From Bdellovibrionia bacterium (GTDB lineage: Bacteria; Bdellovibrionota; Bdellovibrionia; Bdellovibrionales; UBA1609), in NCBI GenBank assembly GCA_030432925.1, contig JAUILT010000019.1, forward strand, positions 1-39,939: a stretch of DNA of 39,939 nt, given 5' to 3'. Position numbers and translations under genes: made by a program. The notes beneath the pieces are model-generated. The model did no database searches and was not told the DNA's origin. It saw only the letters and a program-made list of their open reading frames with translations. Shown here piece after piece: positions 1,451-20,739 of this stretch. The first letter of the stretch is position 1. The number at the start of each line of letters is the position of its first letter.

Positions 1451-1501
1451 ACGGGATCATTAAAATCCAAAAGTTTTATTATACGCACCTGACGGTGCTT
1501 A
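1451..1501 (+). repeat. Dispersed palindromic repeat, diverged partial copy (copy 3)
   Basis: This 48-base stretch lies between the converging 68-aa gene and the L,D-transpeptidase gene. It matches the 3' half of the element found twice at 18774-18934 (minus-strand sense there, plus-strand here). Both begin ACGGGATC, then AAAATC at the same distance, and both end with ACGCACCTGACGGTGCTTA; the middle 14-15 bases have diverged. The end forms a hairpin GCACC-TGAC-GGTGC at 1485-1498. The transpeptidase stop codon (1499-1501) abuts or overlaps the repeat edge. Confidence 0.7.
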
Positions 1502-15930: not shown

Positions 15931-16071
15931 ATGGAACTATTTGCTACATCATTTTTTTCTGTTCTTGGGCTCATGATTATAATGAATGGCCCCAAAAGTT
16001 ACCAAACACAGTTTATCCGAGTGCTTCAAAAAAGAAGTTTGAATACCAAAAAGCAAGAACCTATTGCTTAA
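15931..16071 (+). CDS. Possible small membrane protein (46 aa)
   Basis: ATG 15931 to TAA 16069-16071 encodes 46 residues. The first 20 form one hydrophobic helix (LFATSFFSVLGLMIIM), followed by a polar, basic tail (RVLQKRS, NTKKQ). AGAGG lies directly before the ATG, closer than usual. The end overlaps the converging 961-aa gene by 4 bases. The shape is that of a real single-pass small protein, but there is no homology support. Confidence 0.35.
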   Translation: MELFATSFFSVLGLMIIMNGPKSYQTQFIRVLQKRSLNTKKQEPIA

Positions 16072-18953
16072 AAACTTTTCTCTGTACTGAAGTGAATCAG
16101 TAACCCACTTTTTTGGTCTTCTGTTGTATGTTGAGCCCCAGTTTTAATTCTTAGAGGAATTCTGTGAATAAGCAGGGTCTCAAGTTCCACTCCGTATCTA
16201 TAATCAATGAACCAGGAGTTTAAGTGGGTGCTGGTTTCAGCATCGTAATAGCCGCCTTCTAGATAAATAGCAGACCTTCGAAAGCTCCACGGAAAGCGTG
16301 GAAAATAGAAGGGCGTATCAAAAGGGCGTTTGTAACTGGCCTCCACGGCACGGACACTTTTCAGGTCCACAGAGCTTTCGGGGAATAAACGATAAACTCG
16401 GACAAAATCATTTTTGAGTGAAGGGTTGTACGTCAGCCGGATGTTGTTTTTTTCAGCAACGCCTTCTGTGTACTGCAAAGAGAAGTAGTTTTCGTTTCCT
16501 ATGTCTCCAGATACAAGCATTTGTCCTACAATCACATTGTCTTTATCATTGAAGTCATAAGATGAGCGGATACTCTGATGAGCTAGGGTCAATGCCCAAT
16601 AGCGGTAAGGTTCGTACGCCAGAGGGTAGGACTGCAAATAGGAAAAACGGGTAGAGTTAGTAATGTCTAGGTTTTCTTCGAAACGGTCTCCAAGGAGGTC
16701 GTTTTTTTCGTAAGAGACATCCAGGTTCCAGGCTCCACTCCAGCGGCGCCAAACAAATAACGGAGTGGTGACTCCGGCAAACACCTGTTGGTCGTAGTAA
16801 AATAGGACATCGTCCTCAGTACCACCCAAAACTTTTACTCGATCCTCATTGTAGATGTATCCCACGTAGGGCTTCATTACATAACGGTTTAGCATGTATT
16901 GAATGGCTGCAGAGTTGGAGTCAAAAACCCTTTGATAGGTCAAGCCAATGGTGTTGTAAAAGAGGGGGTCTACAAACGTCGAGCTAATATACCCTTGAAT
17001 GCCTCCCGGATCGGCGCCCCCAATGGAGATATTGGTAGAGCTATATCTTAGATCTCCCAACACAGAATAATTTCTGTAGTCCAGCTCTGAAGCCTCCTGT
17101 GGAATTTGCATGGCCTCATTCATATCAGCCGTTTCAGCTTTGCCCTCTGCTTGCAGATGATTGTAGCTATAAAAAGTAGGGGAGGTCTCCACAGGGCTTT
17201 CGGCAATGATTTTGTAATCATAACCATTGCTGGTGATTTCTGCCACAATATATTGATTATCTCGGATGTTTCGGGCATCGATGATGAGGTCGGAATCACT
17301 GAGGCGAAAAATTTTTCCTTCTTTCCATTGAAACAGACCTGATCCAAGGGGGGTGGAGGCAATAAAATTAATGGCTCCTTCAGTTGTTTGCTCCAGCGGG
17401 TATCCATAAAAGCCTTGGTAGGTGAATAGAGCCTGTTGACCCATCATCAGAGTTCTTTGATCTTTATCCTGAACAAAATAAATGGGGTCTCCAGAATTGG
17501 ATAGGATGGAGGAGGAGTGAACATCACCAAACTCGGTGTCATCAATAAGCAGTCTGTTAGCAAAGAACTGGGAGCTACCTTCAATAGCAGCTGTTTTTCC
17601 TCCACGAATATCTTGAACAATTTTGGAGCGATACTCTGGTAAAAGCCTCAGGCCTTCACCATAAAGAGAGTTTTCCAGGTAACGGACGCTATGCCTGAGG
17701 GAAGCGGCCACAGCTGGTTGGCCATCCACCCAAAATACTTTACCCATGGAAAGGTCAATAGGTTCTTGTTGCCATTTCATTTGGTTTTTATCAATTTTTG
17801 TTAGTAGGGGAGGTTTTTTTAAGTCCTCCTGTACGAGAAACCAAACCATATTAGAGTTATGATTGAAGTTGGCAAAGGAGAGTCCTGAATAGAGGGGCTT
17901 TTCTTGGGAAGCTTTTTGATTTTTGACAATACTTTGCCAGCGAACATTGAATTCTCGAATCAGTTGACTGTAGCTTTTGCCAAAATGGTTTCTAAAAGTT
18001 TTATTAACGACGAGTGGGTTAATAAAGCGCTGTCCCTGCTCCAGAAAAAATTGATTGGTTCTTTCAACTCCATATTTTTCAGCAAGAAAGGCATTGAAAT
18101 ACCCGCCCACGAGGTATTTTTCCGTGCCATAGGGAAAGTAAAGGTGATCATTGAATAGCCTTTCTGGCGTGACTTTTCCGCTTTTTAATAGTTGAAATAC
18201 TTGAGCCCGGGCTTGACCACTGTAAAGTCGACCACCAATGCCGTGGGTGGACTCATTCATGACGGCGTTGCCTTCGAGCATGAACACGGGTGCGAACTGA
18301 TTGGGGTGAATAAACACGGGAACGTAAGGTGTAATGATAAATAACGGGTTTCCAAGGATTGACTTGAACAATGAGGAGATTTTGCTTTTGGCATCTAGCT
18401 GATAAAGGTGGGCGGACTCATGGGCCAGCAAAACACTGAACCAGTTGGGAGAGGCAAAAGAGTCCAGTATAGGAAAACCGCTGGGGTAGAAAAAGGTCAG
18501 TGTGTTGGGACTTACAGTGGCAAAACCATTGGCGATCTGATTTCGTTCAGAAGCCAGTACGAGAGAGGCTCTCTCCTCTAGCCTCCAGGAGAAGGACTTC
18601 TGGTAGAGAGTCCTCAGATGCTCATTGAACTTCACAGCCTTTGGAATGTGTCCTTTATAGAGCTGGGGAAAAATATAATGGTAGCCATCTTGTTCATGAA
18701 CGTAGTAGGAGGTGTCCGATGGAACCAATTGAGCCAGCGCAGTCACAGGCAAAAGCATCATGCTAAGAATAAGCACCGTCAGGTGCGTAAAAAGAGATTC
18801 CTGATTTTGACGATCCCGTTTTAACTGGACGGGGTGGCAAAATGAGGAGTTCTTTGACACCGTCAGGTGCGTAAAAAGAGATTCCTGATTTTGACGATCC
18901 CGTTTTAACTGGACGGGGTGGCAAAATGAGGAGTGTTCGAAAGTAGAACTCAT
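16068..18953 (-). CDS. Large exported HExxH metalloprotease with C-terminal beta-barrel-like region
   Basis: A 961-aa protein. A hydrophobic signal segment (LILSMMLLPVTALAQ) is at about 61-77, much deeper than normal, because two in-frame copies of a 77-base repeat encode residues 8-60. A zinc peptidase domain follows, with HESAH at 178-182 and E227 in LEGNAV as likely third ligand (gluzincin type). Residues about 370-640 contain repeated short strands, perhaps a TolB-like propeller. From about 680 to the end, alternating Tyr/Phe-rich strands look like an outer-membrane barrel ending in Phe. ATG 18953 overlaps the symporter stop (ATGA) and has GGAAG 7 bases upstream; the alternative is GTG 18776, just after the repeats, without a Shine-Dalgarno. 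Substrate unknown. Confidence 0.75.
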   Translation of the reverse strand: MSSTFEHSSFCHPVQLKRDRQNQESLFTHLTVSKNSSFCHPVQLKRDRQNQESLFTHLTVLILSMMLLPVTALAQLVPSDTSYYVHEQDGYHYIFPQLYKGHIPKAVKFNEHLRTLYQKSFSWRLEERASLVLASERNQIANGFATVSPNTLTFFYPSGFPILDSFASPNWFSVLLAHESAHLYQLDAKSKISSLFKSILGNPLFIITPYVPVFIHPNQFAPVFMLEGNAVMNESTHGIGGRLYSGQARAQVFQLLKSGKVTPERLFNDHLYFPYGTEKYLVGGYFNAFLAEKYGVERTNQFFLEQGQRFINPLVVNKTFRNHFGKSYSQLIREFNVRWQSIVKNQKASQEKPLYSGLSFANFNHNSNMVWFLVQEDLKKPPLLTKIDKNQMKWQQEPIDLSMGKVFWVDGQPAVAASLRHSVRYLENSLYGEGLRLLPEYRSKIVQDIRGGKTAAIEGSSQFFANRLLIDDTEFGDVHSSSILSNSGDPIYFVQDKDQRTLMMGQQALFTYQGFYGYPLEQTTEGAINFIASTPLGSGLFQWKEGKIFRLSDSDLIIDARNIRDNQYIVAEITSNGYDYKIIAESPVETSPTFYSYNHLQAEGKAETADMNEAMQIPQEASELDYRNYSVLGDLRYSSTNISIGGADPGGIQGYISSTFVDPLFYNTIGLTYQRVFDSNSAAIQYMLNRYVMKPYVGYIYNEDRVKVLGGTEDDVLFYYDQQVFAGVTTPLFVWRRWSGAWNLDVSYEKNDLLGDRFEENLDITNSTRFSYLQSYPLAYEPYRYWALTLAHQSIRSSYDFNDKDNVIVGQMLVSGDIGNENYFSLQYTEGVAEKNNIRLTYNPSLKNDFVRVYRLFPESSVDLKSVRAVEASYKRPFDTPFYFPRFPWSFRRSAIYLEGGYYDAETSTHLNSWFIDYRYGVELETLLIHRIPLRIKTGAQHTTEDQKSGLLIHFSTEKSF
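18774..18850 (-). repeat. 77-base palindromic element, copy 1 (in frame in the 961-aa gene)
   Basis: Identical over 77 bases to 18858-18934. In sense orientation (minus strand) it carries a hairpin formed by ACCCCGT and ACGGGAT and ends in a second hairpin GCACC-TGAC-GGTGC. It has no stop in the gene's frame and encodes the SSFCHPVQLKRDRQNQ... segment. A diverged copy is at 1451-1501. Confidence 0.9.
18858..18934 (-). repeat. 77-base palindromic element, copy 2 (in frame in the 961-aa gene)
   Basis: Perfect direct repeat of copy 1, separated by 7 bases (TCTTTGA on the plus strand). The period of 84 bases equals 28 codons, so the reading frame is kept through both copies. The perfect identity suggests a recent duplication. 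Confidence 0.9.
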
Positions 18954-20287
18954 TTTATGGCTTCCAGGTTTCTTTCTAGATCAATTTTTTCCACACGAGC
19001 CAGGTAAAGGGCTGCAGTGGAATCCCCTGTTACGTTCACAACCGTCCTTCCCATGTCGAGCAAACGATCAACACCCAGCACCAGCGCAATTCCTTCAGGA
19101 GGAATGCCCAAAGATGCCATAGCTGACATTAAAATGGGGATGGAGCCTCCGGGGACGCCAGCAACTCCTATGGAAGTAAGGAGTACCAAAACCACCAGAG
19201 TGAATTGTCCAGTCAGGCTGATATCAATGCCAAAAACTTGGGCTACAAATAAGGCGGCCACCACTTCGAATAGAGCGGTTCCATCCATGTTGACGGTCAT
19301 ACCCAGTGGGATACTAAAAGTAGTGATACTTTCTGGTACGCCAAAGCGTTTTTCTAGAGTGCGCATGGTGGTGGGCATAGTGGCACTGCTGGAACTGGTG
19401 GAAAAAGCAGTGGCTACGATCGGCAAAATTCGTTTGTAAAACTCAATCACCGGTATACGAATGACATATTTGACAATCAGCGAGTAGGTCACAAAAAAAT
19501 GGGTGAGGTAGCCAAGAATTACGACCATAATGTAGAGGCCCACATTGCCCATGACTTCTAGTCCAAAGTTAGCAACGGCATTGACCATTAAGGCTGCCAC
19601 AGCAAAGGGCGCCACTTTCATAATCCAGCCCACAATGCGGATACAGGCCTCGGAAATGGCATCTAGAAATTGTAGAACTGTCTGCGTGCCTCCCTTGTTC
19701 TCGTTTGTGAGAAGGGCAATCCCAAACAGGAATGATACAAAAATCACTGCGAGCATGTTAGCGTTGGCCAGCTCGGCGATAATATTTTTGGGGATAATAG
19801 TTGAGACAATACCTGGCCATAGAGACTCATTCACTCCGGCACTTTTTTCTTGAAGTCCTGAGATCTGCTCGCTCATGGCAACGACGGCCTCATTTCGAAT
19901 ATTTTCTGGAATCCCGGCTCCCGGCTGAAGAGTATTAATAAAAAACTGTCCAATCATCACGGCCATGAGTGTGGTGACAACATAAAACAACCCCAACCGT
20001 GTTCCTAGGCGTCCGAGGTGCTCGACAGTTCCCAGATTGGCCACTCCCACTATTAATGAACTCAAAACGAGGGGAACCACCACCATGAACAGACTTTGCA
20101 GAAAAGCCTTACCAATGGGGGCCGTCACATTGGACATAATCCACTTGGTCCAAGGAGCATCGGGAAAGTAAACGTTAAAAATAAGCCCTATGATGGCACC
20201 AACAATCAGCCCAACAAGAATCCGTGTGCTGATTGTTTTTTCATCATCCGGTCCGGATTCTGCTTTGTTTCTATTGATTTCAGACAT
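18950..20287 (-). CDS. Dicarboxylate/amino acid:cation symporter (DAACS, GltP/DctA family)
   Basis: An inner-membrane carrier importing glutamate, aspartate or C4-dicarboxylates with Na+ or H+. Family marks: serine-rich hairpin (AFSTSSSSATMPTTMRT), the NMDGTALFE motif in helix 7, the second hairpin GVPGGSIPILM and the substrate-site block DRLLDMGRTVVNVTGDSTAA in helix 8. ATG 20287 gives 445 aa, within the normal 400-450 range; the frame is open to 20380 but the extra residues are Cys/Arg-rich and overlap crcB. The 3' end overlaps the start of the 961-aa protease gene by ATGA, so uptake and proteolysis genes appear cotranscribed. The exact substrate cannot be read from sequence. Confidence 0.93.
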   Translation of the reverse strand: MSEINRNKAESGPDDEKTISTRILVGLIVGAIIGLIFNVYFPDAPWTKWIMSNVTAPIGKAFLQSLFMVVVPLVLSSLIVGVANLGTVEHLGRLGTRLGLFYVVTTLMAVMIGQFFINTLQPGAGIPENIRNEAVVAMSEQISGLQEKSAGVNESLWPGIVSTIIPKNIIAELANANMLAVIFVSFLFGIALLTNENKGGTQTVLQFLDAISEACIRIVGWIMKVAPFAVAALMVNAVANFGLEVMGNVGLYIMVVILGYLTHFFVTYSLIVKYVIRIPVIEFYKRILPIVATAFSTSSSSATMPTTMRTLEKRFGVPESITTFSIPLGMTVNMDGTALFEVVAALFVAQVFGIDISLTGQFTLVVLVLLTSIGVAGVPGGSIPILMSAMASLGIPPEGIALVLGVDRLLDMGRTVVNVTGDSTAALYLARVEKIDLERNLEAIK

Positions 20288-20358
20288 GCGGCGATCATAG
20301 GATGGACAGAAACAGGGTTCAAAGAAAAAATATCTGTTCCTCATACAGGGGGGAGTCA

Positions 20359-20739
20359 ATGAAAATCGGTGAATGGACATCTGTGGGGCTTGCCATGGCC
20401 TTGGGGTCTGTAGGCGTGCTTGTTCGAATTTTTGTCTCAGAGACGCTCAATAAAGGTGGGTTTCCTTGGGGGACACTGACTGTCAATGCGGCAGGGAGTT
20501 TGTTGATCGGCCTGATTATTGCCACTCAAAGTCGTTCGGGGGCTCCCTCCGTTGTATGGGTGGCCGTGGCTATTGGTTTTTTGGGGGCTATGACCACGTT
20601 TTCTTCGTTCTCCCTGGATGGAATCAAAATGCTTTCTGAGTCCCGTATTGGAGAGATGCTCCTTTATGTGGGAGTAACTAATATCACATGTCTGTCCTTT
20701 TGTTATTTAGGAACTCTGGGTGCTCGTTGGTTGCATTGA
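20359..20739 (+). CDS. crcB: Fluoride-specific ion channel CrcB/Fluc
   Basis: A 126-aa four-helix membrane protein. CrcB/Fluc dimers export fluoride passively. Visible signatures: GTLTVNAAGSLLIG in helix 2 (conserved Asn and Gly) and TTFSSFS in helix 3 (fluoride-track Phe residues). ATG 20359 has a strong GGGGGGAG upstream. It diverges from the symporter across 71 bases. I looked for a fluoride riboswitch in that gap and did not find its conserved GGCGATG/CTGATG segments. Confidence 0.93.
   Translation: MKIGEWTSVGLAMALGSVGVLVRIFVSETLNKGGFPWGTLTVNAAGSLLIGLIIATQSRSGAPSVVWVAVAIGFLGAMTTFSSFSLDGIKMLSESRIGEMLLYVGVTNITCLSFCYLGTLGARWLH

Follow-up and report, generated by a model that had tools for sequence, protein, structure and literature searches.

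MITEs have terminal inverted repeats at their ends and a target-site duplication, and single-stranded DNA elements of the IS200/IS605 type carry subterminal hairpins at both ends and insert 3' of a fixed short target, with no duplication. In Rickettsia, RPE are palindromic repeats that lie in frame within ORFs and lengthen the proteins by tens of residues; some sit at the N-terminus, and RPE-1 proteins with such insertions are expressed (PMC3733652). The REP superfamilies treated by Di Nocera and colleagues also occur inside ORFs, where clusters code for 43-82 residues; their tags supply stop codons, and REPs at the N-termini of ORFs are often untranslated (PMC3733652). Enterobacterial MITEs of the RU/ERIC type are small repeats that have been reported within genes, where their frames are open (PMC2759123).

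The window analyzed here (39,939 nucleotides) is the whole of contig C137 of a Bdellovibrionia genome of 3.04 Mb in 172 contigs. The initial annotation had described two identical 77-base palindromic copies, 84 bp apart start to start, in frame and free of stops near the start of a 961-aa protein, whose ATG overlaps an upstream symporter gene. The copies lie exactly where it placed them, translation of the minus-strand ORF (18953-16068) confirmed the open frame, and the overlap of the ATG with the symporter stop is present (18950-18953). The features are as follows.

18950-20380, minus strand: upstream sodium:dicarboxylate symporter gene (Pfam SDF, 5e-115)
18951-18953, minus strand: ATG start, which shares ATGA with the symporter stop, read from the sequence
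16068-18953, minus strand: host ORF, 961 aa, with the extension and signal segment, an HExxH metallopeptidase-like region, a beta-propeller-like middle and an Omp85-like C-terminal barrel (translation, homologues, models)
18770-18773, plus strand: TAAG tag bordering the array on its 5' side (either target site or element head), the same tag preceding 7 of 10 arrays
18774-18850, plus strand: copy 1 of the two-hairpin element, 77 bp of an 84-bp unit, identical to 18858-18934; covariance-model match 18772-18856, E 7.9e-20, this sequence itself having been used to build the model
18773-18786, plus strand: small hairpin of copy 1 (G-CACC-GTCA-GGTG-C), its 5 pairs conserved at 100% and compensatory changes present in the alignment
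18797-18850, plus strand: large hairpin of copy 1, 20 pairs, of which 11 vary on both sides, with pairing in 90% of cells, supported by the fold
18851-18857, plus strand: TCTTTGA, the 7 bp that complete the 84-bp unit, in copy 1 only, lengthening the large stem
18858-18934, plus strand: copy 2, lacking the last 7 bp (identity; covariance-model match 18856-18940, E 9.7e-16)
18881-18934, plus strand: large hairpin of copy 2, identical in sequence to that of copy 1
18774-18776, minus strand: GTG from the end of the element, an alternative start with no Shine-Dalgarno-like pairing
18732-18776, minus strand: residues 60-74, the hydrophobic part of the signal peptide, VLILSMMLLPVTALA (hydropathy peak; aligns with orthologue leaders)
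1451-1499, minus strand: third copy in the window, 3'-truncated, right behind the TAA stop of an ORF (2617-1499) named a putative L,D-transpeptidase from its sequence (DNA and covariance-model searches)

The 77 bp are indeed identical, but the true unit is 84 bp, copy 2 lacking TCTTTGA. The description as palindromic holds for the small hairpin CACC-GTCA-GGTG and for the long hairpin, but the palindrome is imperfect and the long hairpin interrupted. The copies are read on the plus strand, opposite to the host ORF. A 20-base core had no second match elsewhere in the window at ≤3 mismatches (expectation 0.01), and chance is excluded as the source of the repeat. The plus strand of a copy folds at -33.1 kcal/mol (z -5.4) and the mRNA strand much more weakly, at -18.5 kcal/mol (z -2.3). 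An assembly artefact is an unlikely origin of the array, because repeats are more often collapsed than multiplied in assembly, and homogeneous arrays recur at other loci.

The repeat is not unique to this spot: a genome search of the kind proposed in the initial annotation recovered diverged relatives in the same genome at the DNA level. The family consists of a T(A/T)AG tag, a small hairpin, a CG-AAA linker, a large hairpin and AGTTC. In the aligned copies the small hairpin has the consensus NNCC-GTYA-GGNN and is followed by CG and an A-rich linker, and the large hairpin has the core ACGATCCCGT...ACGGGGYGGC, followed by AGTTC; units of 84-105 bp hold two different hairpins. Thirteen of 25 pairs were changed on both sides in the family alignment, and 92% of cells were paired versus 76% in shuffles, with 0 of 500 shuffles reaching the observed value. 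U-G pairs are invariant at fixed sites of the large hairpin in both genera, which suggests that the structure belongs to the plus strand, whether as RNA or as single-stranded DNA. Rfam returned only rRNA and tRNA on the element-bearing stretches. The covariance model gave 13 matches in the genome, among them the sequences from which it was built. Leaving aside a match to the hp1 hairpin only at C147, these form 10 independent arrays: the window pair, the copy at 1451-1499, C169 463 and 1532+1616, four copies in C165, C29 and C71. C147 and C106 hold partial motifs.

Query R1 matched 3 of 141 genomes of the order, all within the family of the window's genome. A second covariance model, built only from copies in G048 (genus g20, a different genus from that of the window), recovered at least 85 copies from G048, 9 from G047 and 5 from G046, and cross-detected 6 copies in the window's genome. 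Across the phylum, 4 of 369 genomes matched (the window's genome, G046, G047 and G048) in a search with fast filters and capped scoring that may miss weak copies elsewhere; the matches fall in 2 of the 182 genera of the phylum.

The tag before the arrays in the window's genome is TAAG in seven of ten cases and TTAG, GTAG and AGAG in one each, and in G048 it is TTAG in 38 of 45 arrays and GTAG in one. It is absent between tandem units in the window's genome and so belongs to the array border, not to the unit. Tandem neighbors are 99-100% identical versus a mean of 67% between arrays, from which it follows that arrays grow locally. Arrays in G048 comprise up to four head-to-tail double hairpins (e.g., L175, L176 and L196), whose inner hp1 hairpins differ in sequence yet still pair. 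Three copies surround flgM/flgN/flgK in a flagellar region (C169 463-1715); those at 465 and 1618 are identical though ~1.15 kb apart, which suggests recent copying or gene conversion. In the one rRNA operon examined (C165 25668-29522) an element occupies every internal spacer (16S-tRNA-Ile, tRNA-Ile-23S twice, and 23S-5S), without exception on the strand opposite the rRNAs.

Almost all family copies lie between genes, and the tag is often the stop codon of the upstream gene. The TAA of the tag is the stop of flgN and of the putative L,D-transpeptidase gene, and the stop at C29 is TAG. Among 45 G048 arrays read with their flanks, about 12 have an ORF of at least 100 aa ending inside the TTAG tag or its duplicate and none lies within a long ORF; judging from this sample, insertion inside ORFs is not a habit of the family. 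In the window's genome only the window array is in frame in a coding position. The repeat-encoded segment would yield peptides such as DRQNQESLFTHLTV, and no further stop-free match to it was found in that genome.

The analogy with RPE drawn in the initial annotation is apt, in that the window palindromes, like RPE-1, RPE-4 and RPE-6, lie in frame inside an ORF and add tens of residues. The families, compared by description, differ in that RPE belong to another phylum and carry the tag CGTC in R. conorii, and whereas RPE enter many unrelated ORFs, the coding insertion here is an exception, one array in frame. The resemblance to REP/BIME of the GTAG/CGTC superfamilies extends to tagged palindromes mostly just 3' of genes with the tag often serving as stop, clustered arrays, strand-asymmetric hairpins and occasional intragenic clusters coding for 43-82 aa (PMC3733652, PMC2817692, PMC8266576). 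The location that defines REPs (extragenic, near 3' ends, tag as stop) is also that of this family. Unlike those REPs, the tag is TAAG/TTAG, with GTAG at 1 of 10 arrays in the window's genome and 1 of 45 in G048; the unit is 84-105 bp with two different hairpins head to tail instead of a single 20-40 bp palindrome; and copy number in the window's genome is low, with no RAYT flanked by elements. RU/ERIC-type MITEs, compared by description, share the small intragenic repeat with an open frame. With regard to MITE features, no terminal inverted repeats span the present unit, its two ends are different hairpins, and the insertion site as reconstructed would need no target duplication. With regard to IS200/IS605 features, each end of the unit has a hairpin close by and TAAG borders the array on the 5' side; no link to a transposase was found. 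Integron attC sites, prompted by GTTAGGC/GCCTAAC in the C169 copies, were rejected by inspection, which showed neither the core motif in the window copies nor a bracketing inverted pair, and CGTC-REP, prompted by GACGATCCCG in hp2, was rejected because the motif differs in orientation and position.

We also looked for a mobilizing enzyme. Y1-like genes occur in most checked members of the family of genomes. The window's genome encodes a 188-aa RAYT-like relative of Y1 transposases (C6 1336-1902; weak NCBIfam REP_Tyr_transpos match), flanked by ORFs resembling penicillin-binding protein and mutL, with no element nearby. No element lay within ~1.5 kb of this gene or of the relatives' Y1/IS200 genes examined, and a copy flanking an autonomous Y1 transposase was accordingly rejected for these genes. 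The segments between neighboring copies in G046 and G047 held ordinary genes and no transposase. Spread by an HUH/Y1-type single-strand mechanism is probable by analogy with proposals for REPs. A bolder reading, which we consider rather unlikely, is that of an undescribed single-strand-mobilized double-hairpin family that inserts next to T(A/T)AG and grows head to tail, and whose unit, exactly 28 codons at this locus, could make the operon junction a translated leader of variable length.

The host protein was assigned to no family by Pfam or NCBIfam. Its HESAH (HExxH) motif and EGNA region are conserved in 15 homologues, which makes "protease" a reasonable name by motif. An AlphaFold2 model (pLDDT 82) is largely of high confidence apart from residues 1-74, which are disordered (leader pLDDT ~25), and Foldseek likened the C-terminal barrel to those of TamA/BamA; an Omp85-like barrel would require export. 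Homologues of this HExxH/barrel protein also occur in several MAGs labelled Helicobacteraceae (L128-L138), far from Bdellovibrionales. Orthologues align in 24 of 40 relatives, the best of them from about residue 57 onward, and orthologue leaders are short (~16-18 residues). As the initial annotation had anticipated, no homologue read has a related N-terminal extension, leaders beginning near the hydrophobic segment. In a congener, a Bdellovibrionales MAG (JAGRAB010000111.1; host protein 55% identical), nothing lies at the junction and the ORF opens with TTG straight after the symporter stop: MLNSLIFFISLLFPFAQAQVVPSD. The congener's symporter starts at the equivalent of residue 32, and the listed start at 20380 is probably too early.

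Excision of 162 bp restores MSSTFELILSMMLLPVTALAQ, similar to orthologue leaders, and joins MSSTFE in frame to LILSMMLLPV..., the short ancestral leader proposed earlier; the product MSSTFELILSMMLLPVTALAQLVPSD fits the leader design of the congener. An inserted palindromic repeat is supported by its relatives in the genome, by orthologue N-termini without it and by in-frame excision. Because the 162-bp empty site is itself reconstructed and a 161-bp excision breaks the frame, the argument from the reading frame is only partly independent. A neutral insert would be both in frame in length and open with a probability of about 1/3 × 0.4 = 0.13, ~0.4 of element frames in the genome being open, and this favors read-through only modestly.

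With moderate confidence, we favor a REP/MITE-like insertion that was locally duplicated and is read through as a dispensable extension of ~54 residues before a cleaved signal peptide. A non-autonomous double-hairpin repeat would have inserted once at the symporter-metallopeptidase operon junction, adjoining a TAAG tag that lies on the opposite strand to the genes, and a local tandem duplication would have followed. Since the 162-bp insert amounts to 54 open codons, ribosomes that initiate at the original ATG, in coupling with the symporter stop, would read through it. The product would be a disordered basic leader with ~54 extra residues ahead of an unchanged signal peptide. Signal peptidase would cut off the whole leader after ...TALA, which would leave the mature outer-membrane protein unaffected and the insertion tolerated. 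We infer translation, processing and mobility of the array from sequence. Nearly all other family copies are non-coding, which argues against read-through.

In a less probable alternative, the array is in effect an untranslated spacer with an accidentally open frame, and translation of the protease would begin downstream of it, either at the GTG that the repeat itself supplies (18776) or at ATG 18761/18758. Every sampled relative of the element is intergenic or at gene ends, and N-terminal REPs are often non-coding (PMC3733652). Two of the three frames on the coding strand are open through the array and the period of 84, a multiple of three, opens the second copy for free, so the open frame is weak coding evidence. 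A 15-residue leader from the GTG is also possible beside orthologue leaders of similar length. However, the GTG has no ribosome-binding signal (anti-SD pairing +0.7 kcal/mol), the ATGA overlap favors coupled initiation at ATG 18953, and a leader from the GTG would lack positive charge, as does that of the congener. The Shine-Dalgarno sequence claimed for the ATG proved weak (its best anti-SD pairing, at -18, reaches -3.3 kcal/mol and falls in the middle half of the values for random 22-mers), and start signals do not decide between ATG 18953 (weak pairing) and GTG 18776 (none).

Base pairing kept by covariation, and copies at gene borders and in rRNA spacers, would also suit a regulatory element under selection, its hairpins tuning mRNA stability or translation between symporter and protease. 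We regard this as improbable, as the transcribed strand here is the weaker folder (-18.5 vs -33.1 kcal/mol), copy orientation relative to genes differs from site to site and the congener has nothing at the junction. Retention as an extended n-region aiding secretion, like the extended signal peptides of autotransporters, would fit the basic repeat-encoded segment (QLKRDRQNQ twice) ahead of an uncharged h-region but is very improbable, since identity between the copies points to a recent duplication and not to selection acting on the peptide, and no orthologue has such a region.

The initial annotation knew of no such report in this lineage, and none was found for Bdellovibrio relatives in the open-access literature searched; the repeat family seems undescribed, though the kind of insertion is known from other bacteria. 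With its clear covariation, tag and growing arrays, it is an addition to Bdellovibrionales, for which that literature reports no such family. Its patchy presence, in 2 of 182 genera, makes its spread and the mobilizing enzyme testable. The window array is also a clean natural example of how a hairpin repeat can enter a coding frame at little cost, immediately ahead of a cleaved signal peptide.
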